From: a virus
Length of the DNA: 36,122 nt
Reading direction: 5' to 3' (one strand)
Virus record (IMG/VR): IMGVR_UViG_3300041402_000739
Span: 1-36,122 of that record
Numbering within the stretch: position 1 is the first letter of the stretch; every line of letters starts with the position of its first letter. The notes under the pieces were generated by a model, which saw only the letters and a list, made by a program, of their open reading frames with translations, made no database searches and was not told the origin of the DNA. A program made the translations under genes and the position numbers. Of this stretch, positions 5,111 through 34,580 are shown piece by piece.

Positions 5111-5359
5111 ATGGAAAAAGTAAAAAATCTTATTAAAGAAATCATTACCGATCAACTTGATTTAGACGAGGGTGCAGCGATATCTGAAACAGCAAATCTA
5201 ATTGATGATCTTGGTGCTGACTCTCTCGATGAAGTGGAAATCCTGATTGCAATAGAAGAAGAATTTGACGTTGAAATCGATGATCTTGAGGCAGAAAAGC
5301 TAAAAACTGTTGGTGATTGGTTTGAATACGCAGAGAAAAATAATTTTAAACTTAAATAG
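5111..5359 (+). CDS. Acyl carrier protein
   Basis: An 82-residue acidic four-helix protein with the phosphopantetheine attachment motif [11 protein letters not shown]; the modified Ser is residue 38. Length and the flanking acidic helices match bacterial acyl carrier proteins, which carry acyl chains as thioesters in fatty-acid and lipid synthesis. Translation has AAAAGGAAA 5 nt upstream. There is no synthase, ligase or phosphopantetheinyl transferase in the window, so it probably depends on the host enzymes. It is the last gene before the promoter at 5360. Confidence 0.92.
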
Positions 5360-6080: not shown

Positions 6081-6157
6081 GCTTCGGTAGCTCAGTTGGT
6101 CAGAGCGCCACGCTCATAACGGGAAGGTCACTGGTTCAAGTCCGGTTCGAAGTACCA
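6081..6157 (+). tRNA. tRNA with CAT anticodon (Met or Ile2)
   Basis: A cloverleaf with acceptor GCTTCGG/TCGAAGT, D arm GCTC/GAGC, T arm ACTGG/CCGGT with TTCAAGT loop, and encoded CCA. The anticodon loop is CTCATAA (CAT). The anticodon stem CCACG/CGGGA has two mismatches, which is unusual. The variable and T-arm region resembles the Ile2 type, whose CAT is modified to read ATA, but elongator Met is also possible. Confidence 0.8.
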
Positions 6158-6166
6158 TAATTACAA

Positions 6167-6239
6167 GCCCCGTTAGCCAAGTGGTTAAGGCACTCGACTT
6201 TCTATCGAGGATTCATCAGTTCGATACTGATACGGGGTA
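6167..6239 (+). tRNA. tRNA-Glu (TTC)
   Basis: Acceptor GCCCCGT pairs fully with ACGGGGT; the anticodon arm CTCGA/TCGAG is perfect with loop CTTTCTA, anticodon TTC; the T arm is ATCAG/CTGAT. CCA is not encoded. Confidence 0.88.
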
Positions 6240-6248
6240 CTTTTTAAC

Positions 6249-6319
6249 GGCCCTATAGTTCAGAGGCAGAACAGCTCGTTGTCTTCGAGAAGGTCAGGAT
6301 ATCGTAATTCCCTAGGGTA
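6249..6319 (+). tRNA. tRNA-Asp-like (GTC), divergent
   Basis: The acceptor GGCCCTA pairs with TAGGGTA except at the first position; the D arm is GTTC/GAAC; the anticodon stem is GCTCG/CGAGA (one mismatch) with loop TTGTCTT, anticodon GTC. The T arm is poor and lacks the usual TTCGA loop. Its last base coincides with the first base of the next tRNA. It may be a decayed or unusual tRNA-Asp. Confidence 0.5.
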
Positions 6320-6393
6320 GCCAAGTAGTTCAGCGGTAGAACGGCTCCCTGTTAAGGAGTTTGTCGCAGGTTCGATCCCTGCCTTGGCTGCCA
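6319..6393 (+). tRNA. tRNA-Asn (GTT)
   Basis: Perfect acceptor AGCCAAG/CTTGGCT, anticodon arm GCTCC/GGAGT with loop CTGTTAA (anticodon GTT), T arm GCAGG/CCTGC with TTCGATC loop, discriminator G and encoded CCA. It starts immediately after the Asp-like tRNA, so both must be cut from one transcript. Confidence 0.9.
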
Positions 6394-18843: not shown

Positions 18844-19150
18844 CCAAACAAAAACAAAAACTTCATGGATAGTTGAGGCTTATGAATGTGTTTGTGGTCA
18901 TATCATGCCTAAATATACAGAATCTTACGGCTATTTTCCAGCAATGCCATACTTTGCATTTCATTCATGTTGCAGAGAATGTGGAGCTACAAGAAATGAG
19001 ATAAAAACAGTAACGGGTAAATGGACTTGGACTTATCAGGTGTTTAAGTGGTGGACCTTTAAGCCTGATAAAGAAATATCAAAAGTATTCAACCATTCAA
19101 ACTATTCACTTGAAAAAGAAATAGAAGAATTAAAAAAGAAAGGGGCATAA
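18836..19150 (+). CDS. Cys-rich (zinc-ribbon-like) protein, 104 aa
   Basis: Overlaps DUF1367 by 8 nt. YECVCGHIMP and HSCCRECGATRN supply paired cysteines for one zinc site; a lysine-rich helix ends the protein. Function unknown. Confidence 0.7.
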   Translation: MHNQTKTKTSWIVEAYECVCGHIMPKYTESYGYFPAMPYFAFHSCCRECGATRNEIKTVTGKWTWTYQVFKWWTFKPDKEISKVFNHSNYSLEKEIEELKKKGA

Positions 19151-19800
19151 TGAAATTATCACACAATGAAACAAATATGAAATCAATATACCAACTATGC
19201 AAAGAAAAAGGACTAACAACTAAACAGTTATTCCAGGAGATCAACAAGCCTTTTAAATTCCTAAAAGAGTCTGAATGGCATAACATGTTCAGAAAAAACA
19301 TGTTCAGCAATAAAGTAGCCGATAAGATTTGCAAGATATTAGAAGTTGGATTATTAGACATTGATATTCACATTGAAGTCGTAATGAAAAAGCCAAAACA
19401 GTACGTGCAAAAAATGCACATACTGCAACAAAAGGCCGATTTTAGTAAAGTCTCAGGCTTAGAAAAGCCAGGAGCCAAGCCAAAGAAGAAACCAAAGACT
19501 AGGCAAATCAAAATCCATGATATTGAGAAGCCGAAGGATCTAGCCTGTAAAAATTGCGGTGTTGAAACAGAAACAGAGTGCTATCATCATTCAGAGTCCA
19601 CTAGAATCAAAATGCTAGTGGGAGGGGGTATTATGGGCGATAAAATAAACAACCACCTTACGGCGTGGCTCTGCAATGGCTTGCTGTGCGGTATAAAATT
19701 CGATATAAAGCCAGACAAAAACAGTCACCCTTTATTGATTGCTGAGCATGATTTATTCACCTATGATTGCATAGCTAAAACATGGTTAAATATAGATTAG
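19150..19800 (+). CDS. HNH-like nuclease domain with N-terminal HTH-like region, 216 aa
   Basis: Residues 1-80 look like a helix-turn-helix (LCKEKGLTTKQLFQEI, SNKVADKICKILEVG). A basic linker (PKKKPKTRQIKIHD) leads to CKNCGVETETECYHHSES, then GGGIMGDKINNHLTAWLCNGLLC and AEHDLFTYDCIAKTW, which resembles the Cys/His/GMG-K-x-N-D core of phage HNH nuclease-type proteins such as DUF1364. The assignment is by motif only. An inference is a DNA-junction or recombination nuclease. Ends the plus operon. Confidence 0.55.
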   Translation: MKLSHNETNMKSIYQLCKEKGLTTKQLFQEINKPFKFLKESEWHNMFRKNMFSNKVADKICKILEVGLLDIDIHIEVVMKKPKQYVQKMHILQQKADFSKVSGLEKPGAKPKKKPKTRQIKIHDIEKPKDLACKNCGVETETECYHHSESTRIKMLVGGGIMGDKINNHLTAWLCNGLLCGIKFDIKPDKNSHPLLIAEHDLFTYDCIAKTWLNID

Positions 19801-19874: not shown

Positions 19875-20219
19875 TCAACATTTTACAATTCCCTCAACTG
19901 TAAGGCATTTGTAGGATGATTTAACTGACTTGATCCATTTTTCAAATTGTGACTCGGTATCGAAAGAGAAAGTTTTCAACGGTAAGAATATAAGGCTGTG
20001 ATGCCCTGTATGGTCCCTTCCTGATTTATCATGGTATCCAATGTGAGCTTCGTTTTTTTCAGCATCGTAAACAATGGGGTTCTTTCCAATATCAATAAAA
20101 GTAAACTCTTTATCCCCTGTTTTGATTTTAACAAGGGTTGAGTCTTTATTGCTACTAAATACACCGGCAAAAGCGTTAGATGAAAACAGGATTGAAAAGA
20201 GAATGATTAATTTTTTCAT
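19875..20219 (-). CDS. Exported protein with signal peptide, 114 aa
   Basis: The N-terminus has a classic Sec signal (KKLIILFSILFSSNAFAG; cleavage likely after AFA). The mature part is small and beta-rich with a His-rich turn (HIGYHDKSGRDHTGHH) and two Cys that could pair. It overlaps the outer-membrane protein gene (ATGA), so the two envelope proteins form a unit. No family is recognised. Confidence 0.75.
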   Translation of the reverse strand: MKKLIILFSILFSSNAFAGVFSSNKDSTLVKIKTGDKEFTFIDIGKNPIVYDAEKNEAHIGYHDKSGRDHTGHHSLIFLPLKTFSFDTESQFEKWIKSVKSSYKCLTVEGIVKC

Positions 20220-20902
20220 TGAAAAAGATCTTCAGGGAGTCCAAATTGAAAAACGGCACCAACAGAAACATAACCTCCCTTGTGGTGTGATTCTAATTCT
20301 TCAGATTTGGAGCCAACCTGAACCATTGAAAGCATAACACCATAAGCCATATTGTTAGCAGTCCATAAATATTTAGTATCAAGAACAATTCCCGTTGTTA
20401 GTTCTTCAATTTCTCCATACTCTTTGGTTTCTTTAACTTTTGAGTTGCTAACACCAAGGTTTGCTGTTAGTCTGTTTCTTTCATTAATATTAAATCTAAT
20501 TCCAGCACCACCGACATAATGAACATGCTCCCAATCAGTATCAACGTCATCAAGCTTAACGCCAGTAACCGTGAAAAATGAATATCTGCCCCATATATGC
20601 ATATGCTCATTGAATTTATAAGTTACCCCAAAACCAGTAACAGCCTGAATAAACTGTTCGTTTGCTGGTTGGTCGGGCAAATTGAAATCAAAACCGTAAA
20701 GATCAAGATTCCATACTGATTCGGTTGGCCCTGCATAATCCTGAGAGACTTTAGATGTATCAGCAGAATTTGAACCCATATTAAAATTGTTGTTATTTGT
20801 AACTTTATCACCAAAAAAGCTAGATGATTTTTTCTGCAAAGTTCCAGCGTATGAAGTATTCCAGGCCACGCATAAAAAACATATTAAAATAAGCTGTTTC
20901 AT
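20216..20902 (-). CDS. Outer-membrane beta-barrel protein, 228 aa
   Basis: Sec signal peptide (KQLILICFLCVAWNTSYAG), then alternating strands with aromatic girdles (HMHIWGRYSFFTVTGVKL, VHYVGGAGIRFNINERNRLTANLGVS, GYVSVGAVFQFGLP). The length suits an 8-strand OmpX/OmpA-like barrel. Phage-coded barrels often alter surface receptors or adhesion of the host. It has its own promoter (20943-20971) and GAGAGAGAAA binding site. Confidence 0.75.
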   Translation of the reverse strand: MKQLILICFLCVAWNTSYAGTLQKKSSSFFGDKVTNNNNFNMGSNSADTSKVSQDYAGPTESVWNLDLYGFDFNLPDQPANEQFIQAVTGFGVTYKFNEHMHIWGRYSFFTVTGVKLDDVDTDWEHVHYVGGAGIRFNINERNRLTANLGVSNSKVKETKEYGEIEELTTGIVLDTKYLWTANNMAYGVMLSMVQVGSKSEELESHHKGGYVSVGAVFQFGLPEDLFQ

Positions 20903-24970: not shown

Positions 24971-25600
24971 TTGAAAAAAAGTTGCAAGAAAAAAGGAACA
25001 AACGGTAGGAAAAAAGGCAAAAAAAACGTAATAACTCCTAGAAATCGTCGGTTTATTGATAATTTTATAAATTCTGGCAATGCCACACACGCCTACATTG
25101 ATGCTGGCTATAGCCCTAACGGGGCAGATGTAAGCGCCTGTAAATTGCTAAGAGTTCCCAAGATAGCCGCCGAAATAGAACGGCGAAGGCTCGAAATAGC
25201 CAACGACAACAACGTAACCGCTTCAAGAATAATCAACGAACTTGCAAAAATAGCCTTCCTTAAATCAAGTGATGTTTTTAATTATGAAACGATAGAGTAT
25301 AAAAAGGACGGGGAACTTAAAAAGAAAAGCATACCGATAATCAAACCGCATGAAGAACTTTCAGACGCCGCCCTATCTTCAGTATCAAGCATAAAAGAGG
25401 GAATGTATGGGTTAGAAATAAAACTATACGACAAGCAAAAAGCCCTTGATTCTCTTGGTCGCTATGTCGGGTTAAGCAATGAGGCCGAAATATCAAAAGC
25501 AAAAAATATTAAGCAAGATGAGAAAGCCCAAGATATTGATGACCCACTGAAGGGAATGACAGAGGAAGAGATCGACGCCGAGATCGAGAAGCTTTCATGA
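24971..25600 (+). CDS. terS: Terminase small subunit
   Basis: 209 residues. ITPRNRRFIDNFINSGNATHAYIDAGYSPNGADVSACKLL is the DNA-binding N-terminal domain typical of the Terminase_2 small subunit, which recognises the packaging site and forms a ring on the large subunit. A long helix and polar tail follow. No ATG is available before the conserved domain; TTG 24971 is the likely start. Its stop overlaps the large-subunit ATG (ATGA). Confidence 0.88.
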   Translation: MKKSCKKKGTNGRKKGKKNVITPRNRRFIDNFINSGNATHAYIDAGYSPNGADVSACKLLRVPKIAAEIERRRLEIANDNNVTASRIINELAKIAFLKSSDVFNYETIEYKKDGELKKKSIPIIKPHEELSDAALSSVSSIKEGMYGLEIKLYDKQKALDSLGRYVGLSNEAEISKAKNIKQDEKAQDIDDPLKGMTEEEIDAEIEKLS

Positions 25601-27189
25601 ATAAAAAAGAACTTTGGAAGTTGCTAAGGGATAAGAAAATAATCCAGTGCAGAAAGTCATTTTGGGGATTTCAAAAGATAACAGATCCAAACAATTACAA
25701 AGACGAAAGAACCTATCTTTTAATCCTGGCTTTAAGCCTTCAATCCTATTATCAAAACAAAGTATGCTCATACATTTCAAAACTAAAACCAGAACACCAC
25801 GAACGGCTTGACCTCTCAGATACAACAATCGACGTTGAAATAGAGCCACACGAGAAAGGCTCATTGATCACTGTTGATTGCACTGAAACGGATATTCTAA
25901 TCGTAGAGGTTCCCCCTCGGCACCACAAGAGCCATACTCTAATCATGTTTGAATGTTGGTGCTTTGGTCAAAATCCAAAATCGATCATGGTAACAGCCGC
26001 CCATAATTCCAGGCTTGCTAATGAGTTTTCACAATATGTTAGGGATGGAATAGAAGAAGTCAGGTTAAAGCCAACGGCGATAATTTACAACGATATATTT
26101 CCTTTTACCCGGATGAAGTTTGGGGATCGGTCAAAAGAGCGTTGGGCATTACATGGGAACTTTCTTTCTTACACCGGATCGGGAATATTCACCCCTGTAA
26201 CCGGAAAGGGTGGAAACATGATTGTATTCGACGATCCAATCAAAGGTCCCCTTGAAGCTTTCAATGAAAACCACCTTGATAAAATTTGGACCTCTTACAC
26301 TGACGGTTGGCTTTCAAGAATGGAATCCCCTCGAAGGCAAGTCCTGGTGATGACCCCATGGATTCAAGGTGATATAGCCGATAGAATCGTTGAAGGGGCT
26401 GAAGACTCAGGAGAAATCGTAAAGATATTCAACTGCAAAGCCTATACTGAAAGTCAGGGGATGCTTTGTGAAGAGATATTAAACAAGCGTTCATTTGATA
26501 TATTACGCTCAAGACTGGACCCTATTATATTTTCAGGGAATTATCTTTGTACTAGGCTAGGTAAATCAGGACTTCTTTATACTTCCTTTAATTACTACAC
26601 CATCGACGACATTCCAAAAAAGTTTGATGAAATATATGGCTACACGGACACAGCCGATGAAGGGAAAGACTTTCTTTGTACTATTGTAGTAGGTATAATT
26701 AGATCAAGGGACGAGTTTGGGTTAAGGATTAAAAAGGCATACGCACTTGGAGTATACTACAGTCAAGCAGGAATGGAGATAACCGAGAAGGAAACAGTAA
26801 ACTTTCTAATTAAAAACAACATCCAGGGAAACATGATCGTTGATGTTGAATCAAACAATGGTGGAAGAGGGTTTGCAAGGATAGTAAAAAAAGAACTTTC
26901 AAACAGGAAAGAAGGAAAAGGAATAATTATTAAATGGTTCCACCAGACAGAAAACAAGGACGCTAGAATCAACAGTGAATCCAATACGATAATGAAATAC
27001 TTTTATTTTCCTTCCGACTGGCAAACAAGGGATAAACATTGGGCCGCTTATTCTAAATCAATGCTTAAATATTCAAAAGACGGTGACAACACTCACGACG
27101 ATGCCCAGGACTGCACCACTGGGATTGCTGAGAAGAAGATCAACACCGATATGACGATGCTTGATGCTTTATCACAAAGGAGGATGTGA
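25597..27189 (+). CDS. terL: Terminase large subunit
   Basis: 530 residues. ATPase half: EVPPRHHKSHTL as Walker A (K111, S112; the position before Lys is His where most relatives have Gly) and NMIVFDDP as Walker B (D212, D213), then the VLVMTPW coupling segment. Nuclease half: GYTDTADEGKD (D351), IVDVESNNGG (E418) and HDDAQD (about 501-505), the RNase H-fold metal site. It pumps DNA into proheads and cuts it. Unusually, no portal gene follows; the next genes run the other way. Confidence 0.92.
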   Translation: MNKKELWKLLRDKKIIQCRKSFWGFQKITDPNNYKDERTYLLILALSLQSYYQNKVCSYISKLKPEHHERLDLSDTTIDVEIEPHEKGSLITVDCTETDILIVEVPPRHHKSHTLIMFECWCFGQNPKSIMVTAAHNSRLANEFSQYVRDGIEEVRLKPTAIIYNDIFPFTRMKFGDRSKERWALHGNFLSYTGSGIFTPVTGKGGNMIVFDDPIKGPLEAFNENHLDKIWTSYTDGWLSRMESPRRQVLVMTPWIQGDIADRIVEGAEDSGEIVKIFNCKAYTESQGMLCEEILNKRSFDILRSRLDPIIFSGNYLCTRLGKSGLLYTSFNYYTIDDIPKKFDEIYGYTDTADEGKDFLCTIVVGIIRSRDEFGLRIKKAYALGVYYSQAGMEITEKETVNFLIKNNIQGNMIVDVESNNGGRGFARIVKKELSNRKEGKGIIIKWFHQTENKDARINSESNTIMKYFYFPSDWQTRDKHWAAYSKSMLKYSKDGDNTHDDAQDCTTGIAEKKINTDMTMLDALSQRRM

Positions 27190-27402
27190 TTCACCAATGG
27201 AAACAATATCACCAGCGACGCCGGATTCAAGGAATACTGTAGCCTTATTTTTTAAGCCAGCCATACTGGCCGCCAGTAGCTCACTGTTAGAATGAGCGTA
27301 TCCAGCATTCCAAGGATATAGCTTTGCTTGCGGCTTTATAAAAGAAATATTTAAACCAGCAACAGAAAGCCCGACTATTTTTAAAAATTTTCTTCTGTCC
27401 AT
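27172..27402 (-). CDS. Small protein with Tat-type signal, 76 aa
   Basis: The N-terminus MDRRKFLKIVGLSVAGLNI is a near-perfect twin-arginine signal (RRKFLK plus hydrophobic stretch). After about 30 residues a short Gly/Ala-rich mature part follows (AASMAGLKNKATVFLESG). AAGGTAAAAC is the binding site. Its 3' end overlaps the end of terL on the other strand by 18 nt. A folded exported protein is inferred; function unknown. Confidence 0.6.
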   Translation of the reverse strand: MDRRKFLKIVGLSVAGLNISFIKPQAKLYPWNAGYAHSNSELLAASMAGLKNKATVFLESGVAGDIVSIGESHPPL

Positions 27403-27494
27403 TGTTTTACCTTAATAATTATTAATACAATAGCTAATAGAAGGAGATAGATTGCTGTGCCTATAAGGTCGGTGCTTCTGGAAGCTTTGCCCAA
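27381..27494 (-). CDS. Possible single-span membrane peptide, 37 aa
   Basis: An open frame from TTG 27494 with GAGGTGA just upstream encodes a span IYLLLLAIVLIIIKV and a polar tail. It overlaps the ends of both neighbours. AT-rich DNA easily makes hydrophobic frames, so support is limited to the binding site and the overlap. Confidence 0.3.
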   Translation of the reverse strand: MGKASRSTDLIGTAIYLLLLAIVLIIIKVKQWTEENF

Positions 27495-27682
27495 TGCGTC
27501 ACCTCGTAATCCTTGTTGAAATCGTAATCCCACCCAACGCAATCATGACCGATTCTCCAACAAGGGCCGTCGCTTTTCACCTCATAGCTTCCAACTGCCA
27601 TCTCACCGTGATCATTAACCACAAGAACGTATTCATCGTTTGGAACCTCATCACACACGTTTTTCCACTCAAAAACACTCAT
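27461..27682 (-). CDS. DUF551-like protein, 73 aa
   Basis: FEWKNVCDEVPNDEYVLVVNDHGEMAVGSYE ... VTHWAKLPEAP has the beginning and the VTHW-x-x-LPE end of the DUF551 family of small phage proteins, whose role is unknown. AAGGATTAAC precedes the ATG. Confidence 0.75.
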   Translation of the reverse strand: MSVFEWKNVCDEVPNDEYVLVVNDHGEMAVGSYEVKSDGPCWRIGHDCVGWDYDFNKDYEVTHWAKLPEAPTL

Positions 27683-27731
27683 TGTTAATCCTTGGTCATT
27701 GTAGTTTCATTAGTTAATAGAAGAAGGTAGA

Positions 27732-28217
27732 TTACTTTCCAATTTGAAAAGAAACGGTCTTATTAAAAGCTCTCTCACAATTAGATACGGCACAACCTAG
27801 AATAGTTGATAGTTCATGTGATGCGATTCTTTGATCTGTTATCCAATGCAATTCATCAGGAGTAACAATAATATTGATTTCTTTTCCAATAGCTTCGTCG
27901 ACCATTGAATAAATGTCATCTAATATTTTAGATGACCCTAAATGATTCGCATAATCCCATGCAAGATGATCTTTCGAAATCCTTGTTGATCTATTATCAA
28001 TCACAGTTGCAGGAATATTTTGAACAACATTAAGCTTACTCATGATCCATTCGAACTCTTGGTTCATTTCTTCTTTTGTTTCGTAGTTCCAAATAATTAT
28101 TTCTTTGATAGTGATAATAAAAATGGAACATTTTTCGGGGAAATACTGATCTTGGAACGTGATAATATGATCAGAATTCACGGGTTTATTCTTTTCGTTT
28201 CTCGATCTTATAAACAT
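27732..28217 (-). CDS. Hypothetical protein, 161 aa
   Basis: Alpha/beta with hydrophobic strands (CSIFIITIKEIIIWNYE, EINIIVTPDELHWI). No family is recognised. The binding site is weak; it follows the next upstream gene by 8 nt. Confidence 0.7.
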   Translation of the reverse strand: MFIRSRNEKNKPVNSDHIITFQDQYFPEKCSIFIITIKEIIIWNYETKEEMNQEFEWIMSKLNVVQNIPATVIDNRSTRISKDHLAWDYANHLGSSKILDDIYSMVDEAIGKEINIIVTPDELHWITDQRIASHELSTILGCAVSNCERAFNKTVSFQIGK

Positions 28218-28225
28218 AGTAGGTT

Positions 28226-28525
28226 TTATTGATCCTTTGTTCTAATTGAAAACTCTCCATCATGATTATAAAGAGCAATCCACTTTCCTTTATCCTCTCC
28301 AACAATTACAAAAAGCTTATTTAACCATCCGTTGCATTCCGCACCAGTGTCGTTGTTTCCGTCGGTGGTTAAATCTTTCGCTTTTACGTGGGAGCTCATC
28401 GCAATTTCAGGCAGTTGTTTTTTAACCCACTCAACAGCCGCTTCAACTGGAATCCCGCATAAATAATCAAAATTAAAGTCTCTAATGTAGCAAGCCGTGA
28501 ATCCTATTTCAAAATTGTTTTCCAT
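28226..28525 (-). CDS. Hypothetical protein, 99 aa
   Basis: AAAGGTTATAA before the ATG. Mixed alpha/beta; FVIVGEDKGKWIALYNHDGEFSI suggests a small beta domain. First gene downstream of the structured RNA region 28556-28997, from which its message may be processed. Confidence 0.7.
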   Translation of the reverse strand: MENNFEIGFTACYIRDFNFDYLCGIPVEAAVEWVKKQLPEIAMSSHVKAKDLTTDGNNDTGAECNGWLNKLFVIVGEDKGKWIALYNHDGEFSIRTKDQ

Positions 28526-28555
28526 TTATAACCTTTGTTTTAATAGTGTTGAATT

Positions 28556-28654
28556 GCAGAGGGCAGGGACATAACGGACTCAAACCGAGTTCTTTGAGGC
28601 AATAAGCCTAAGCATATCACGTCTCACCCTGCGGAACCTGAACCAAACCTCTGC
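28556..28654 (-). ncRNA. tRNA-like RNA module A
   Basis: On the minus strand the 99-nt segment is closed by GCAGAGG and CCTCTGC (extended by TT/AA). Directly next to the 3' arm, with no unpaired base, lies a second helix GCAGGG/CCCTGC that encloses short hairpins AGGC/GCCT and ACTC/GAGT, one with a GGTTTGAGTCC string reminiscent of a T arm. Acceptor-like and T-arm-like stacking recalls tRNA, but no canonical cloverleaf forms. Confidence 0.5.
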
Positions 28655-28684
28655 AAAATCCTTAGTCATTTCTGTCCGACCGAA

Positions 28685-28732
28685 CATGGAGTGAAATACA
28701 AAAGCTGACAACTTTCTAAGTCTCACTCCATG
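28685..28732 (-). ncRNA. 10-bp hairpin between RNA modules A and B
   Basis: CATGGAGTGA (28732-28723 side) and TCACTCCATG (28694-28685 side) pair perfectly over 10 bp with a 28-nt loop. Further helices flank it (GGGGCAA/TTGCCCC at 28735-28773; CCCTTG/CAAGGG at 28772-28796). The 28655-28806 interval therefore also looks like folded RNA. Confidence 0.45.
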
Positions 28733-28806
28733 GCGGGGCAAGGTCGTGTCACTGCTTATTCCCGCTTTGCCCCCTTGTCACGGTCTACACCAAGGGTATT
28801 CTGATT

Positions 28807-28997
28807 GCAGAGGGTAGAGTTTGATATCTACACGCTGATCACCTCCCAATGTGCTTCCATGGAACACGGTTGGAATTTCAGCAAATTACCGTCTTATTGT
28901 CGGGCGTTTGATTTTGCGTCTACTTTAGTTCTTTAACTAGTTATCTCACTCACCTGTGCGTTTAAACAGTTATATTGTGCGCTTCCGCCACCTCTGC
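28807..28997 (-). ncRNA. tRNA-like RNA module B
   Basis: 191 nt on the minus strand closed by the same GCAGAGG/CCTCTGC helix. The 3' arm abuts the hairpin GTAGA/TCTAC without spacer. Internal hairpins include ACGGT-AATTT / AAATT-ACCGT with GCTG loop. It starts GCAGAGGTGGCGGAAGC, like the 5' end of a tRNA-Leu or -Ser, but the rest does not fold as one. Its 3' end is the 31-nt repeat shared with 6517-6547. Confidence 0.5.
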
Positions 28998-29003
28998 AAA
29001 TAT

Positions 29004-29195
29004 TTAAGGCAACTCGTCTAGCCCTGTCGCCTTGTCTATCCCTTTGCCAGTTGCGTTGACTATTGTTCCTGCTGTTTTCCCAATTCCTTCGACTATCCTC
29101 CCAGCGTCTTCATTGACTATTCCTACAACGTCGCCAGCTATTTCAGAAGCAACACCTACTGTGCTGTCTATGATTTCTCCTATTAATCCAAACAT
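29004..29195 (-). CDS. Small Gly/Ala/Val-rich protein, 63 aa
   Basis: AAAAAGGAGAAAT gives a strong start. The product is a repetitive amphipathic chain (IIDSTVGVASEIAGDVVGIV ... GIGKTAGTIVNATGKGID), with weak 11-residue periodicity, so it could lie on a membrane or form a helical filament. No family is recognised. Its own promoter is at 29228-29256 and module B follows 6 nt after the stop. Confidence 0.65.
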   Translation of the reverse strand: MFGLIGEIIDSTVGVASEIAGDVVGIVNEDAGRIVEGIGKTAGTIVNATGKGIDKATGLDELP

Positions 29196-29227
29196 ATTTC
29201 TCCTTTTTATTAATTAATTCAACCTAA

Positions 29228-29256
29228 ACTCTATTCAAATAAACAATCTTTGTCAA
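29228..29256 (-). promoter_or_regulatory. Promoter for 29004-29195 and RNA modules
   Basis: Minus-strand CGTATTGACA (-35 at 29256-29251), 17-nt spacer, TAGAGT (29233-29228). Leader of about 25 nt to ATG 29195. It would also transcribe modules B and A. Confidence 0.6.
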
Positions 29257-29323
29257 TACGTTAAAAACATTATTTTACCCGGTCTATACACGGTGCAACA
29301 TTGGCATTTTAACACTGATATTA

Positions 29324-29572
29324 TTAACTTTTCAACGGGCAAAGAATATCGATTTCTCTATTGGCAAAATGAATAAATTCGTCAATAATATAGTTGTTGT
29401 CAGAATCTAGGATTGTTTTAGTTGAAAACTCAGATTCGAAAGAATACTTTTTATCAAGATACCATTCAACCCTTAGTGTTAGCGTGTAATTTTTAACGGG
29501 CGGGATTACCAACCAGCCGCCCCTGTTTATACAATTTCTGATTGTGATCAAATCTAGTAAAAAATCTTCCAT
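29324..29572 (-). CDS. Hypothetical protein, 82 aa
   Basis: The start at 29572 (MEDFLLDL) is preferred over an in-frame upstream ATG because AGAGGTTAAATAGT lies before it and it avoids a long overlap with the previous gene. Beta-rich (WLVIPPVKNYTLTLRVEWYLD). No family is recognised. Confidence 0.7.
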   Translation of the reverse strand: MEDFLLDLITIRNCINRGGWLVIPPVKNYTLTLRVEWYLDKKYSFESEFSTKTILDSDNNYIIDEFIHFANREIDILCPLKS

Positions 29573-29573
29573 A

Positions 29574-29834
29574 CTATTTAACCTCTTTAAAAATACTCTC
29601 AGGATTAACCCGTATTTTCTTCCCAAACCGCAACAGAATTTTAATTCTCTCCAAGTGTGACAAAACAGTAAGTAAATTACTCATCGTTTCTATTTTTACT
29701 CCTAACTCTTCCAGCCCTAAACCAATGTTCAAAGCGTTTAGTCTGTTGATAGGCGTCCACTCTTCAGGGAATAGTTCTTTTATTAGGCTTTCGTTTTTGA
29801 ATAGCCATTGTTTGTTTTCTAGGGTTTCTTTCAT
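29574..29834 (-). CDS. Hypothetical helical protein, 86 aa
   Basis: The start directly follows the stop of the previous gene (TAA then ATG). Helical and Leu-rich, with a basic C-terminus. No family is recognised. Confidence 0.7.
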   Translation of the reverse strand: MKETLENKQWLFKNESLIKELFPEEWTPINRLNALNIGLGLEELGVKIETMSNLLTVLSHLERIKILLRFGKKIRVNPESIFKEVK

Positions 29835-30077
29835 TTAATTTATTTCAGCCTTATTTACGTGTGCCAATGATTTAAGCGTGTTAAGGAAATGATAATTTGC
29901 GTCCCTTAAATCAACTAATCTCTCCAACTCTTTAGCTACAAGCTGCTTGTTTAATTCGTTAATTGTGTTGTCAAAAACCCTTTTATGAGCTAAAAATGCA
30001 GAATCAAGACGAACACTCTCACCAGTATAAAAAGTAACAGCTTTATTGATTCGGGTAATTATTGTTTTTTCATTCAT
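29835..30077 (-). CDS. Hypothetical helical protein, 80 aa
   Basis: AAAGGAGC lies 10 nt before the ATG. Predominantly helical, positively charged at both ends. No family is recognised; co-transcribed with its neighbours. Confidence 0.7.
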   Translation of the reverse strand: MNEKTIITRINKAVTFYTGESVRLDSAFLAHKRVFDNTINELNKQLVAKELERLVDLRDANYHFLNTLKSLAHVNKAEIN

Positions 30078-30117
30078 TATTCAATAGCTCCTTTCTTTAT
30101 TGTTTCATTTTATCCAC

Positions 30118-30426
30118 TTAAAATTTCCTTATGCTATATGTTATTTTTGACGCTCTTAATGGTGCTCGCAATCGCTCTTCCGATTCTTTGAACGCGGTAG
30201 CGCATTTTTCAAGTTGTTTTTTGTGTTCAATTGGGTTTTTCTTCTCCCATTCCTTTCTGTCCTTGTAATATTTTTCAGTTTTCTTTTTTATTTCTGACAA
30301 TTCATCTTCAGTTAAAAGATCGTAGCCACCACCGCATTCTTTACAAAGAACAGGTAGAGTTTGCCCCATGTCTGTTTCTCCGCAAAAATTCCACCATGAG
30401 TCTTTTATTGCCCGTCTACATCCCAT
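30118..30426 (-). CDS. Hypothetical Lys-rich protein with Cys pair, 102 aa
   Basis: First gene of the left-going operon, starting after AGGGGATAG. An N-terminal basic part with MGCRRAIKDSWWNFC and a C-KEC-GGG motif may bind zinc; a long charged helix follows. RNA module C forms its leader. Function unknown. Confidence 0.7.
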   Translation of the reverse strand: MGCRRAIKDSWWNFCGETDMGQTLPVLCKECGGGYDLLTEDELSEIKKKTEKYYKDRKEWEKKNPIEHKKQLEKCATAFKESEERLRAPLRASKITYSIRKF

Positions 30427-30538: not shown

Positions 30539-30566
30539 TGCTTACACTTAACATTTAAACTGTCAA
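30539..30566 (-). promoter_or_regulatory. Left-going promoter
   Basis: AGTATTGACA on the minus strand (-35 at 30566-30561) with TAAGCA at 16 nt (30544-30539). It starts the transcript that opens with RNA module C. The 30427-30704 gap holds this, module C and the opposing promoter. Confidence 0.55.
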
Positions 30567-30621
30567 TACTAAATAATTATCTAACTATAAAAATAAATTC
30601 ACTTTTATTCAATTAAAAGTA

Positions 30622-30650
30622 TTGACACAATTAATCCACTTCTCTAACCT
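30622..30650 (+). promoter_or_regulatory. Right-going promoter
   Basis: AGTATTGACA (-35 at 30622-30627), 17-nt spacer, TAACCT (30645-30650). Divergent from the promoter at 30539-30566. Leader of about 50 nt to ATG 30705 with a small CCGG hairpin. Confidence 0.55.
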
Positions 30651-31497: not shown

Positions 31498-31507
31498 CAA
31501 AAACAAA

Positions 31508-31571
31508 CTCGCAGCATTCTCCAGTCCTGCGGGTAGAGCATCGGGCATACGTACCTTGCAGCCCGGTGCTC
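31508..31571 (+). ncRNA. Double hairpin with a loop complementary to ACTGGAGA leaders
   Basis: Hairpin 1: CTCGCAG (31508-31514) with CTGCGGG (31527-31533), loop CATTCTCCAGTC. Hairpin 2: GAGCATCGGGC (31536-31546) with GCCCGGTGCTC (31561-31571), 11 bp with one wobble. The first loop is complementary to the GACTGGAGA start leader of six genes. It could be a 3'-end-derived small RNA. No gene is present here. Confidence 0.45.
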
Positions 31572-31603
31572 GTTTAATATGGAGATTTTAAGGAGATTGT
31601 AAA

Positions 31604-31813
31604 ATGTTTAACATATCCGAATTACTATGCATCAAAGAAGCTGTTAAAACGAAACTTGATACGTGGATTGAAGATCATGGAAAAGCTGAGATTGAAGTAA
31701 TTAGCGAGATGGATTGTATTGTTAGGAAAATAATTAATTCAGAAATTGATTTCAACAATGAATTTAAAGCCTTAGGCGCCTTAAGAGAAAGACACCATGA
31801 TGAGCAAGACTAA
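31604..31813 (+). CDS. Hypothetical helical protein, 69 aa
   Basis: AAGGAGATTGTAAA before the ATG. Acidic and helical, ending in a His-rich tail. No family is recognised. Confidence 0.7.
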   Translation: MFNISELLCIKEAVKTKLDTWIEDHGKAEIEVISEMDCIVRKIINSEIDFNNEFKALGALRERHHDEQD

Positions 31814-31822
31814 AGAGGGCGA

Positions 31823-31942
31823 ATGAAAAAACCAATCAGATCATTCATACTGACTTTTATTATTATAACTCTATGTGTATCTTTTGTGGTATTTAGAGAT
31901 TATGGATGGAATTTTGAACATATGTTTGAGGGGAAGAAATGA
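31823..31942 (+). CDS. Single-span membrane protein, 39 aa
   Basis: AGAGGGCGA before ATG 31823. A basic start (MKKPIRS), one span (FILTFIIITLCVSFVVF) and a polar tail fit a small inner-membrane protein with its C-terminus in the periplasm. The stop overlaps the next start (ATGA). Confidence 0.6.
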   Translation: MKKPIRSFILTFIIITLCVSFVVFRDYGWNFEHMFEGKK

Positions 31943-32130
31943 AAGCATTAAAATTAAGTGAATGCACCCTTGGTGTTGTAGTTGCCTCCTGTGGAGATGA
32001 TAGAAAAATAGGGCATGTCGTTGGGTTGCATAAAAACTCTACAGGTGAAGTTATTCCAGTTGTTCTATGGGCAGGTGATGCAATTCCTGTTGCTATTCAT
32101 CATAGTAATATAAGAAAATATAAGGAATAA
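31939..32130 (+). CDS. Hypothetical protein, 63 aa
   Basis: Overlaps the previous gene by 4 nt, with GAGGGGAAGAA as binding site. Beta-rich (LGVVVASCGDDRKIGHVVGLH, VIPVVLWAGDAIPVAIHHSNI); it looks like a small barrel. No family is recognised. Confidence 0.7.
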   Translation: MKALKLSECTLGVVVASCGDDRKIGHVVGLHKNSTGEVIPVVLWAGDAIPVAIHHSNIRKYKE

Positions 32131-32153
32131 AGAATAGAAAATAACTCCACAAA

Positions 32154-32196
32154 GCCAAGCCGAGGGGATAATATGAACGAATCATAACGGCTTGGC
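32154..32196 (+). terminator. 9-bp hairpin
   Basis: GCCAAGCCG (32154-32162) and CGGCTTGGC (32188-32196) form a perfect 9-bp stem with a 25-nt loop after gene 31939-32130. No T-run follows. It may be a processing or terminator hairpin separating this unit from the rep-like unit. Confidence 0.5.
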
Positions 32197-32258
32197 CCGT
32201 GGGAAAAGAAACATAACAGTATAGAATTAGATTGAGTATGTCAAATCTACGGTTTATA

Positions 32259-32287
32259 TTGACTTGATGATTTTGGTTTAGTATTAT
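32259..32287 (+). promoter_or_regulatory. Promoter for the initiator-like gene
   Basis: TTGACT (32259-32264), exactly 17 nt, TATTAT (32282-32287): a strong sigma70-type match. It implies a leader of about 100 nt before ATG 32396. Confidence 0.7.
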
Positions 32288-32331
32288 TTAGGCATCTTTA
32301 AGCGGAGACATCCGTTAATAGATTGGTTCCG

Positions 32332-32376
32332 ATGGGAAGCAATTGCCCTGTACTTGCGTTACAGGGCAGCCAATAA
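32332..32376 (+). CDS. Putative leader peptide, 14 aa
   Basis: ATG GGA AGC AAT opens a 14-codon frame that runs through the hairpin at 32344-32368 and stops at TAA 32374-32376, 4 nt before the downstream pseudoknot strand. No good ribosome binding site precedes it. Listed because position and stop resemble leader peptides of antisense-controlled plasmid rep genes. Confidence 0.3.
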   Translation: MGSNCPVLALQGSQ

Positions 32377-32387
32377 CCTTACGCAAG
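32344..32387 (+). promoter_or_regulatory. H-type pseudoknot in the mRNA leader
   Basis: TGCCCTGTA (32344-32352) pairs with TACAGGGCA (32360-32368), 9 bp. The whole 7-nt loop CTTGCGT (32353-32359) is complementary to ACGCAAG (32381-32387), which touches the AAGGA binding site of the following gene. Both pairings can coexist as a pseudoknot that would control ribosome access. Confidence 0.65.
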
Positions 32388-32395
32388 AAGGAAAC

Positions 32396-32719
32396 ATGCC
32401 TAAATACAAAGATTCACCTTTTGTTCAATTAAATCGTTTTATATTCCACGAGGATTGCAATTTAAGCTTCAGGGCTAAATGGTTGTATACTGTTTTGTCT
32501 GAGCTTGAACATCGTTACACGGGGGATAAATGCGACTTTTTCTTTAGACCACAAGATTCATTATCAAATGACACTGGAATGTCGATTGGAACTAACCGAA
32601 AAGCAAGGAAAGAACTTGTTGAAAAAGAATGGATTAAAACTTGGAATATGCATTGGAGAGACAAGAAAACCGGGAAATTAAGCGAGAAGCACGTAACAGC
32701 TTACAAACTTTTAAAATAG
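32396..32719 (+). CDS. Winged-helix, replication initiator-like protein, 107 aa
   Basis: ATG 32396 follows GAAGGAAAC; an in-frame extension from TTG 32354 passes through the pseudoknot and is rejected. FVQLNRFIFHEDCNLSFRAKWLYTVLSEL, then FFFRPQDSLSNDTGMSIGTNRKARKELVEKEWIKTW and a basic wing, resembles the helix-turn-helix domain found at the front of phage and plasmid initiators (the recognition helix sits at SIGTNRKARKELVEKEW). It lacks a C-terminal domain. Role as an initiator or as a repressor is open; the leader and repeats around it favour replication control. Confidence 0.6.
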   Translation: MPKYKDSPFVQLNRFIFHEDCNLSFRAKWLYTVLSELEHRYTGDKCDFFFRPQDSLSNDTGMSIGTNRKARKELVEKEWIKTWNMHWRDKKTGKLSEKHVTAYKLLK

Positions 32720-32830
32720 GCAAAAGCAGCCAAATGACTTTTGCTATGGTTAAAATAAACCTTTTGGGCAAAAGTCAAACGGCTACTACAATATAACAAT
32801 TAACTTTTAATATATAATAATTAATAGGAT
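32719..32830 (+). repeat. CAAAAG half-site array and AT-rich DNA (possible origin)
   Basis: Four CAAAAG half-sites: plus at 32721-32726, minus at 32738-32743 and 32761-32766, plus at 32769-32774. TGACTTTTGC (32735-32744) and GCAAAAGTCA (32768-32777) are a perfect 10-bp inverted pair, each flanked by GGC/GCC. An almost pure A/T stretch (about 32785-32855) follows. This layout fits an initiator-bound origin or operator. The 32720-32890 gap has no gene. Confidence 0.5.
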
Positions 32831-32890
32831 ATAAGAGTTAATAAATAATATACCCCTCATAAAATCGGGGCGCATCTTGGAGCTTTAAAA

Positions 32891-33286
32891 ATGAAATTTA
32901 GAATTAAATGTTGTAAAACTGATACACCTGAAAAAACTTGGTGGGAAGATTACGAAAAAGATATTGAAGATGCTGAAATTTGGGCAATCGAGACTGTTGA
33001 CTCTTTTAATAAAACCTTACGTCCTGGTGAAAAACACAGGACGCTTATTGAAGTTGAAGTTGAAGTTGAAGGAGATGAAAATAACGAGGAACTTCATAGA
33101 TGGGATAAAGATATTACAAAGATGAGCTCCATATTTCGTGGGCGTGTGTATGACGGGATGAAGTGCGAAAAATGTGGAATTACAGGGAAAAGATATGGTT
33201 TAACTTCGTATGTAAAAATTGACTCAAAATACAAGAAAAAAGCATTTAAAAAGTGTAATACGTCTATTATTGAAATGAGGGGTTAA
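32891..33286 (+). CDS. Hypothetical protein with C-terminal Cys pair, 131 aa
   Basis: TTGGAGCTTTAAAA before the ATG. Starts with FRIKCCKTDTPEKTWWEDYEKDIEDAEIWAIETV, an alpha/beta layout; a C-EKCG motif comes later. Its middle carries four TTGAAG DNA repeats (33048-33071) coding for Glu-Val repeats. Likely a conserved phage protein of unknown role. Confidence 0.75.
   Translation: MKFRIKCCKTDTPEKTWWEDYEKDIEDAEIWAIETVDSFNKTLRPGEKHRTLIEVEVEVEGDENNEELHRWDKDITKMSSIFRGRVYDGMKCEKCGITGKRYGLTSYVKIDSKYKKKAFKKCNTSIIEMRG
33048..33071 (+). repeat. Four tandem TTGAAG units
   Basis: Exact 6-bp repeat inside gene 32891-33286, in frame, giving (Glu-Val) repeats. Copy number could vary by slippage without breaking the frame. 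Confidence 0.8.
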
Positions 33287-33299
33287 ACAACGTTTAGTA

Positions 33300-33328
33300 T
33301 TGACAAGGAAATAATTTATAATTAAGGT
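33300..33328 (+). promoter_or_regulatory. Promoter candidate
   Basis: AGTATTGACA (-35 at 33300-33305), 17-nt spacer, TAAGGT (33323-33328). The -10 is weak and lies close to the ATG at 33334, so it would serve the genes from 33465 on or need a different -10. Confidence 0.4.
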
Positions 33329-33333
33329 TTATT

Positions 33334-33441
33334 ATGTTTACAACGATAGATTTTTTAATGTTAGTAGTTATCGCCATCTCAGTATTTGCGCTGTTTGGTG
33401 GTAGGAAAAAGATTAATAGAAAGGTTGATTATACAGAATAA
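33334..33441 (+). CDS. Single-span membrane protein, 35 aa
   Basis: TAAGGTTTATT before the ATG. One hydrophobic span (FLMLVVIAISVFALFG) followed by a basic tail (GRKKINRK), so an inner-membrane peptide with its tail inside. Function unknown. Confidence 0.6.
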   Translation: MFTTIDFLMLVVIAISVFALFGGRKKINRKVDYTE

Positions 33442-33464
33442 CATTGAATAGATAAAGGGATGAA

Positions 33465-33674
33465 ATGAAATACAGAGTAGTGAAAATAACAAATAATATA
33501 GGGGGTTATCCTGAGTGTAAATCCGACACTGAAGAATTTCCAGAAATTATTGAATGCGTCGAAGATGAAATGGATAACTTTATTGTTGATGAGAATGGAA
33601 AGTTTTGGCAAGCGGATGAGTTTTTTAATATGATCGAGATAAAAGAATTTACTACAGAAAATGAAAACAGTTAA
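33465..33674 (+). CDS. Hypothetical acidic protein, 69 aa
   Basis: AAAGGGATGA before the ATG. A beta start (KYRVVKITNNIGGYPECK) and acidic helical remainder. Overlaps the next gene by 14 nt. No family is recognised. Confidence 0.7.
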   Translation: MKYRVVKITNNIGGYPECKSDTEEFPEIIECVEDEMDNFIVDENGKFWQADEFFNMIEIKEFTTENENS

Positions 33675-34191
33675 CTTCAAAACCTTCACCGTAACAACAA
33701 ACGTAGAAGAAAAAGACTTTTTTGAAGAAGGCCTAATCCACAACGAGCTTGATATGCTTTCTGTTGTCGATGCAAGAGCCCACTACGAGAAGCTTTTTAA
33801 CGAAGATCCTTTTTTCAACCACAATCCTAAAGATATAACTTATGTTTTTGGTCTCTATCAAAAGCTGGAAGAATTTTCCATGGAAAATATTGATTTTGAT
33901 AAGCTGGAAAAATCTATAATCTCTCATTCTCACGGTGAATGTCAACCAGTTTGGCTACATTGGGATGGTTGTATTACTGAATTGTTTGGAAAGAATTTTG
34001 ATCTTCCTTATGATGAGGATCAACCGACTAATCCTGTTAATCCAGTTGTCGCTGTTTTTACATCATTTACAAGTGATTACGTAATTAGATACGAAAATAC
34101 AGGAAACAGGATAGGATGGGAAAAACACATCAAAAAAACAATCGAATCAAAAATGATTGAGATAGAAGCTGAGCATTTAGAGAATAGGTAA
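33661..34191 (+). CDS. Hypothetical acidic protein, 176 aa
   Basis: Overlaps the previous gene, so it is probably coupled. Contains HSHGECQPVWLHWDG in the middle, which could bind metal, but no known family fits. Long enough to be a two-domain protein. Confidence 0.7.
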   Translation: MKTVNFKTFTVTTNVEEKDFFEEGLIHNELDMLSVVDARAHYEKLFNEDPFFNHNPKDITYVFGLYQKLEEFSMENIDFDKLEKSIISHSHGECQPVWLHWDGCITELFGKNFDLPYDEDQPTNPVNPVVAVFTSFTSDYVIRYENTGNRIGWEKHIKKTIESKMIEIEAEHLENR

Positions 34192-34193
34192 GC

Positions 34194-34391
34194 ATGACAA
34201 AATATGAAATTAACTCGTTAAAGTCGCTATTATTAGACTATGAGATAAGTTCTTCATGGTGGGCTGGTTTTATTGGTTTTGAATTTCTTCAGCGTTTATC
34301 CGCTAAATACTTCGCATGGAAAGTCAGTAGAAAGTTTAGGGCTTATATCAGGAGTAAGGCTGTACGGAAAATTATTTTAGAGAATAGTTGA
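34194..34391 (+). CDS. Hypothetical basic protein, 65 aa
   Basis: Starts 2 nt after the previous stop. A short hydrophobic segment (SWWAGFIGFEFLQRL) is followed by a strongly basic helix (AWKVSRKFRAYIRSKAVRK), suggesting membrane-surface or nucleic-acid association. No family is recognised. Confidence 0.65.
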   Translation: MTKYEINSLKSLLLDYEISSSWWAGFIGFEFLQRLSAKYFAWKVSRKFRAYIRSKAVRKIILENS

Positions 34392-34397
34392 TATGAT

Positions 34398-34580
34398 ATG
34401 AGCATAGTTCGTGAAAATTTAATGAAACAAAAAGGGTACCCTCCGTATTGTGGCAATAGATGCAAGGAAATGCCAAGAACAAGGTTTAACGGGGATCAAT
34501 TTGAATGCGGATGCTGTGGTTGGAAAACATCTTTCCCGATTGAATTTATAGATGAGTATAAAAGAAAATGGCAGACATAA
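34398..34580 (+). CDS. Zinc-ribbon protein, 60 aa
   Basis: YPPYCGNRCKEMPRTRF and QFECGCCGWKTSF provide two Cys pairs at ribbon spacing. Phage proteins with a GY-x-PYCG start and CCGW end are common small ORFs of unknown role. There is no clear binding site. Confidence 0.7.
   Translation: MSIVRENLMKQKGYPPYCGNRCKEMPRTRFNGDQFECGCCGWKTSFPIEFIDEYKRKWQT

Follow-up and report, generated by a model that had tools for sequence, protein, structure and literature searches.

A gene for a 107-aa winged-helix-like protein in a 36-kb virus sequence may be controlled in cis at the level of translation by its own leader RNA, through a lock on the start codon combined with a pseudoknot switch; we hold this reading tentatively, at somewhat less than an even chance. 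It starts from the complementarities in the leader, their rarity, and the position of a predicted promoter, all of which are direct observations on the DNA. The whole stretch of 36,122 nucleotides that was analyzed is called the window here. The elements of the leader are as follows.

32232-32260, plus strand: weaker promoter TTGAGT-17-TATATT, rank 110 with the sigma-70 matrix, predicted start near 32267
32259-32287, plus strand: sigma-70-type promoter TTGACT-17-TATTAT, predicted start near 32294
32285-32299, plus strand: 5' arm of the long-range stem P1, overlapping the -10 box and start region of the preceding promoter; from the inverted-repeat listing and folds
32300-32316, plus strand: hairpin P2, from folds
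32322-32343, plus strand: hairpin P3, whose GAUG loop contains the AUG of the leader ORF, from folds
32332-32376, plus strand: leader ORF of 14 codons, MGSNCPVLALQGSQ, from ATG at 32332 to TAA at 32374-32376; a weak candidate
32344-32368, plus strand: hairpin P4, 9 perfect bp, with the 7-nt loop CUUGCGU at 32353-32359 as strand 1 of the potential pseudoknot
32377-32391, plus strand: hairpin P5, a 4-bp CCUU/AAGG stem holding the Shine-Dalgarno (SD) sequence, with ACGCAAG as its loop; -1.6 kcal/mol
32381-32387, plus strand: ACGCAAG, strand 2 of the potential pseudoknot and a perfect reverse complement of the P4 loop (the partner)
32388-32392, plus strand: SD sequence AAGGA, -4.8 kcal/mol
32392-32406, plus strand: 3' arm of P1, containing the start codon at 32396-32398
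32396-32719, plus strand: winged-helix-like protein of 107 aa, an orphan in all collections searched

Hairpin P4 (UGCCCUGUA-CUUGCGU-UACAGGGCA) has a folding energy of -13.5 kcal/mol and a z-score of -3.6. A sequence-only reading that preceded this analysis had described a 9-bp hairpin whose entire 7-nt loop is complementary to ACGCAAG, and had placed this partner beside the ribosome binding site of the winged-helix gene. Both descriptions agree with the DNA, and the SD sequence follows the partner directly. The 7-mer ACGCAAG occurs as a single copy, with no other on either strand of the window. For the chance expectation, the whole window was shuffled 300 times with its dinucleotide composition preserved, and both strands were searched for a stem of 9 bp or more whose loop pairs over at least 7 nt with a downstream segment within 45 nt. 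Such an arrangement was obtained in 5 of the 300 shuffles, and next to a ribosome binding site and start codon in only 1. In 2.74 Mb of other retrieved loci, no ORF of 40 aa or more was preceded by a comparable constellation. A loose version (stem of at least 6 bp, loop pairing of at least 6 nt) appeared 5.4 times per shuffled window; because looser definitions are so common, the strength of the observation lies in the 9 + 7 pairing and its position. The complementarity between P4 and its partner is real, and, judged from the sequence, it is probably functional.

The geometry of P4 and its partner corresponds to what we take to be a standard compact H-type pseudoknot, with an S1 of 9 bp, an S2 of 6 to 7 bp, an L1 of 0 to 1 nt, and an L3 of 12 nt. 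The 7-bp S2 duplex amounts to -8.5 kcal/mol. To our knowledge, leader pseudoknots have seldom been documented in DNA phages. Pseudoknots located immediately 5' of an SD sequence block ribosomes more often than they help.

Two further pairings, both absent from the sequence-only reading, bear on the same start site. The shorter one is P5. Since CCUU and AAGG flank the partner, the partner forms the 7-nt loop of a hairpin that contains the SD sequence; only 2.2% of the 7-mers in the window have four such pairs around them. P5 and the H-type pseudoknot are mutually exclusive, unless a strained kissing-loop form is allowed. When the S2 energy is weighed against the penalty for forming a pseudoknot and the modest price of melting P5, the two states plausibly differ little in energy. 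With the pseudoknot modelled, the SD sequence is still covered by a weak AGG/CCU pairing of 3 bp, and its probability of being free is 0.04.

The longer pairing is P1, in which 32285-32295 pairs with 32396-32406 over 11 perfect bp, followed by a mismatch and 3 more pairs, so that the AUG is buried. Among the 79 ORFs of the window, no other has a start-region helix as long as P1 (11 bp, with 8 bp for the next), and a helix of this type and length was reached at only 2 of 4,000 random positions. The whole leader including P1 folded with a z-score of -4.5 to -4.1, compared with -3.0 without the P1 arm and -1.2 for 32330-32415 alone. In the computed folds, the probability that the AUG is unpaired was 0.00 for the long transcript and 0.32 for the short nested form, and it reached 0.93 when the pseudoknot was imposed on the short RNA and P5 was blocked. 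Rfam covariance models gave no plus-strand match to the leader at the gathering score, nor any at E ≤ 10 for 32100-32900.

Which of these structures can form would depend on where transcription starts. The strong promoter announced in the sequence-only reading is present at 32259-32287, where it ranks 19th among the 360,900 placements scored across the window with the sigma-70 matrix. A start near 32294 is a consensus prediction for this promoter; as that position lies inside the 5' arm of P1 (32285-32299), RNA initiated there would lack most of the arm. The arm also overlaps the -10 box, and P1 is thus expected only in read-through transcripts. A transcript from the weaker promoter at 32232-32260 would be longer and would contain the entire P1 stem. 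The co-oriented genes upstream extend to 32130, and a search of 31500-34500 for intrinsic terminators found none.

Two other features upstream of the leader were observed. Between the upstream genes and the promoters, a perfect 9-bp hairpin (GCCAAGCCG/CGGCTTGGC) occupies 32154-32198, and its loop carries the mini-ORF ATG AAC GAA TCA TAA preceded by AGGGG. At 30561-30627, two promoters face outward between divergent gene blocks and share AGTATTGACA as an inverted repeat. With at most 1 mismatch, AGTATTGACA is present in 11 copies in the window against 3.0 expected, a number reached in 0 of 100 shuffles, and this excess suggests a phage promoter motif.

Under the proposed mechanism, transcripts reading through from the co-directional genes or initiated at the weaker promoter would hold both P1 arms, and their start codon would be shut in the 11-bp stem and not translated, by analogy with known phage genes. 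Transcripts from the promoter at 32259-32287 would begin within the 5' arm and could not form the stem. In this short RNA, the SD sequence would be either held in P5 or freed by pairing between the loops of P5 and P4; the resulting H-type pseudoknot would form just upstream of the SD sequence and open P5. In this scheme transcription would start near 32294, and the pseudoknot would form and would raise rather than lower translation, though the opposite effect is conceivable; the balance might be set by the protein itself, by the ribosome, or by simple folding kinetics. The proposal is favored by a promoter that is among the best of the window and has its -10 box in a P1 arm. Several points count against it: P5 is weak and may be a poor lock, no homologous leader was found in any collection searched, the leader z-score is weaker without the P1 arm, the SD sequence is mostly paired even in the modelled pseudoknot, a pseudoknot next to an SD sequence is more often inhibitory, and the transcription start is a consensus prediction. 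In its most ambitious version, the leader would act, within about 120 nt, as an RNA gate with two inputs that controls a DNA-binding regulator, such that only transcripts from the gene's own promoter, folded in one way, are translated; this we consider rather unlikely. If the lock and switch hold true, they would provide a compact example of start-site masking and a pseudoknot acting on one start codon, in a leader that can be tested with simple reporter mutants.

The lock has precedents in phage T4. In T4 e, soc, 49, and I-TevI, the start site is masked in long transcripts, and for e and I-TevI a promoter lies within the 5' arm, so that its transcripts are open (PMC3014915, PMC2988022). The features of the gene e type, a start codon paired with upstream sequence and a predicted start (near 32294) inside the 5' arm, are both found here, and the transcripts of the overlapping promoter would likewise lack the stem. 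As in T4, the site is set among co-directional genes with no terminator detected. P1 differs from the T4 stems in that it encloses about 90 nt, in which three further hairpins and the potential pseudoknot lie, and the promoter, predicted here from its sequence, is sigma-70-like rather than T4 late. For the switch, known H-type pseudoknot riboswitches (preQ1-I and SAM-II) also pair a hairpin loop with a segment beside the SD sequence; however, the leader has no Rfam match, its stem and loop lengths are different, and the downstream gene is not metabolic.

Plasmid replication control offers another comparison. The sequence-only reading had proposed a plasmid-style replication switch, with a leader peptide and an antisense RNA against the loop; what survives of this is a leader capable of forming a pseudoknot beside the ribosome binding site, while the antisense RNA, the leader peptide, and the replication switch are not supported. 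The IncI rep leader of plasmid R64 served as a positive control, scanned with the same promoter matrix as the window. In R64, the hairpin at 302-351 has a loop TGGCGGA (326-332) complementary to TCCGCCA (435-441), 83 nt downstream, and a minus-strand promoter with a score of 9.2 starts near the hairpin base. Near P4, no minus-strand promoter (start within 32355-32600) was detectable by the matrix, the best placement scoring 4.0 (rank about 2,100 of 360,900), which argues against an antisense RNA directed at the loop.

The 14-codon ORF is present as described, ending 4 nt before the partner strand. However, the claim that it is translated as a leader peptide and coupled to the downstream gene appears poorly founded in the sequence. 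The ORF lacks an SD sequence of its own (-2.2 kcal/mol, against a gene median of -5.2), its codon score is that of noncoding DNA, and its AUG lies within the loop of its own hairpin, P3. When the leader was shuffled, an ATG ORF of at least 10 codons was similarly placed in 6% of cases. The winged-helix protein could in principle extend N-terminally through the leader, where the frame is open from 32282; this extension was likewise rejected, since its codon score of -0.10 per codon is below the 5th percentile of coding stretches.

In IncI/IncB rep leaders, as here, the loop of a stable hairpin is complementary to sequence adjoining the SD sequence of the downstream gene, and a competing hairpin sequesters the SD sequence and contains the partner, although P5 is weak in our case. 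In addition, a short ORF ends nearby in IncI/IncB/IncL-M leaders such as ColIb-P9 repZ. In the competition between SD hairpin and pseudoknot, the present leader may thus partly share the mode of action of an IncI leader. It differs in having no detectable antisense promoter, a leader ORF without an SD sequence, a connector of 12 nt between hairpin and partner instead of 83 nt in R64, no full-length initiator, and the extra P1 lock, and it is not classed as a member of the IncI/IncB type. Full plasmid-type (IncI/IncB/IncL-M) control, in which translation of the leader peptide would open the SD hairpin, the pseudoknot would activate an initiator, and an antisense RNA on the P4 loop would block it, is highly improbable. 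The SD hairpin with the partner as its loop, the alternative pseudoknot, the leader-ORF stop at the base of the SD hairpin, and the CUUG (YUNR-type) loop motif all agree with it. Against these stand the undetected antisense promoter (4.0 versus 9.2 in R64), a leader ORF with neither SD nor coding signal, and a protein with nothing beyond a winged-helix domain, with other replication genes elsewhere in the window.

Those genes, at 7.4-9.4 kb, encode a Lin1244-type (Lin1244_N/DnaD-like) initiator and a DnaC-like loader, and the gene behind the leader encodes only a 107-aa winged-helix-like domain, which lends no support to a replication switch. The label "initiator-like" derives only from weak winged-helix matches to the corresponding parts of phage replication proteins (phrog_270, E 3e-5, residues 20-81 only), and Pfam HTH_36 was below the cut-off. 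The AlphaFold model was uninformative (pLDDT 48), and the fold search therefore gave no result. No homologue of the protein was found in the viral-contig or genome-contig collections, in 25 other virus records, or in 392 genomes from the phylum of genome G028. Phages gave none, with only two partial tail-protein matches (E 3) at E ≤ 10, and plasmids none beyond a RepL-like match (27%, E = 1). The 8 whole genomes behind the terminase matches contained no convincing relative (one weak match, E 0.0055), and neither of the contigs with the most similar terminases (L117, 73%; L002, 64%) yielded the gene. At the DNA level, the leader had no homologue in phages or plasmids. A search for the exact hairpin found no other leader, the 26 matches to the loop/partner/ribosome-binding-site pattern included none with the hairpin, and the two matches to the P1-arm pattern were both unrelated.

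Three other explanations were weighed against the lock and switch. That the leader has no regulatory function, P4 being an incidental stable hairpin and the complementarities coincidences picked from a 36-kb record, gains from the roughly five loose versions per shuffled window, from the absence of the gene in the contigs of the nearest relatives, and from the failure to find a conserved leader in the collections searched. We nevertheless consider it unlikely, given two independent rare features (the pseudoknot beside the ribosome binding site and the 11-bp start-codon stem) that fall in the same 150-nt leader as a strong predicted promoter. Autogenous control, in which the winged-helix protein or another phage protein would bind the pseudoknotted leader and repress its own translation, has its precedent in the T4 gene 32 leader, where an H-type pseudoknot is associated with gp32 binding (PMC3014915). 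The T4/T2 gene 32 leader is likewise a phage mRNA leader with an H-type pseudoknot that affects translation, and a compact pseudoknot beside the initiation region is seen here as well. However, the gene 32 pseudoknot nucleates gp32 binding from about 67 nt upstream, with an A+U-rich stretch between, whereas the pseudoknot here adjoins the SD sequence with no known RNA-binding protein. Winged-helix domains normally bind DNA, and no RNA-binding signature was found, which leaves autogenous control by such analogy with little likelihood.

That preference for DNA leads to the third explanation, in which the 15-nt inverted repeat (14/15) would be a pair of operators where the winged-helix protein binds to repress its own gene, and the folding of P1 in RNA would be incidental. 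The arms overlap the -10 box and start at one end and the gene start at the other, and the product is a predicted DNA-binding domain, as such operators would require. Yet the repeat shows no excess of further copies in the window (7 with up to 3 mismatches, against an expectation of 5.6), neither arm is a palindrome in itself, and P4, P5, and the pseudoknot are left unexplained, so that we rate operators as very unlikely.

Directly 3' of the winged-helix gene, at 32725-32787, lies a strong imperfect hairpin with 20-nt arms (80%) and 10 perfect inner pairs (TGACTTTTGC/GCAAAAGTCA), whose sliding z-score on the minus strand is the minimum for the window. It is possibly a binding site, an origin element, or a 3' processing signal. 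In the terminase region (24971-30426), small genes on the minus strand come directly after the small and large terminase genes. Neither a portal nor a capsid gene was seen in the window, and the record may be partial or unusually organized. Since terminase genes are present and no portal, capsid, or tail genes were found among the window ORFs examined, the virus record is probably a fragment. A probable outer-membrane beta-barrel protein with a signal peptide is encoded on the minus strand at 20216-20902 (a weak OmpX match, below the cut-off), which suggests a Gram-negative host. A 12-bp hairpin (GCAGUAUGUGCA...UGCACGUACUGU in the minus-strand reading) is located at 19361-19480 within the coding region 19150-19800. 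The phage also carries genes for a DnaJ-domain protein (2315-2959) and an acyl carrier protein (5111-5359; NCBIfam E 3e-23, above the cut-off), as well as three clustered tRNA genes (Met, Glu, and Asn) at 6081-6393.
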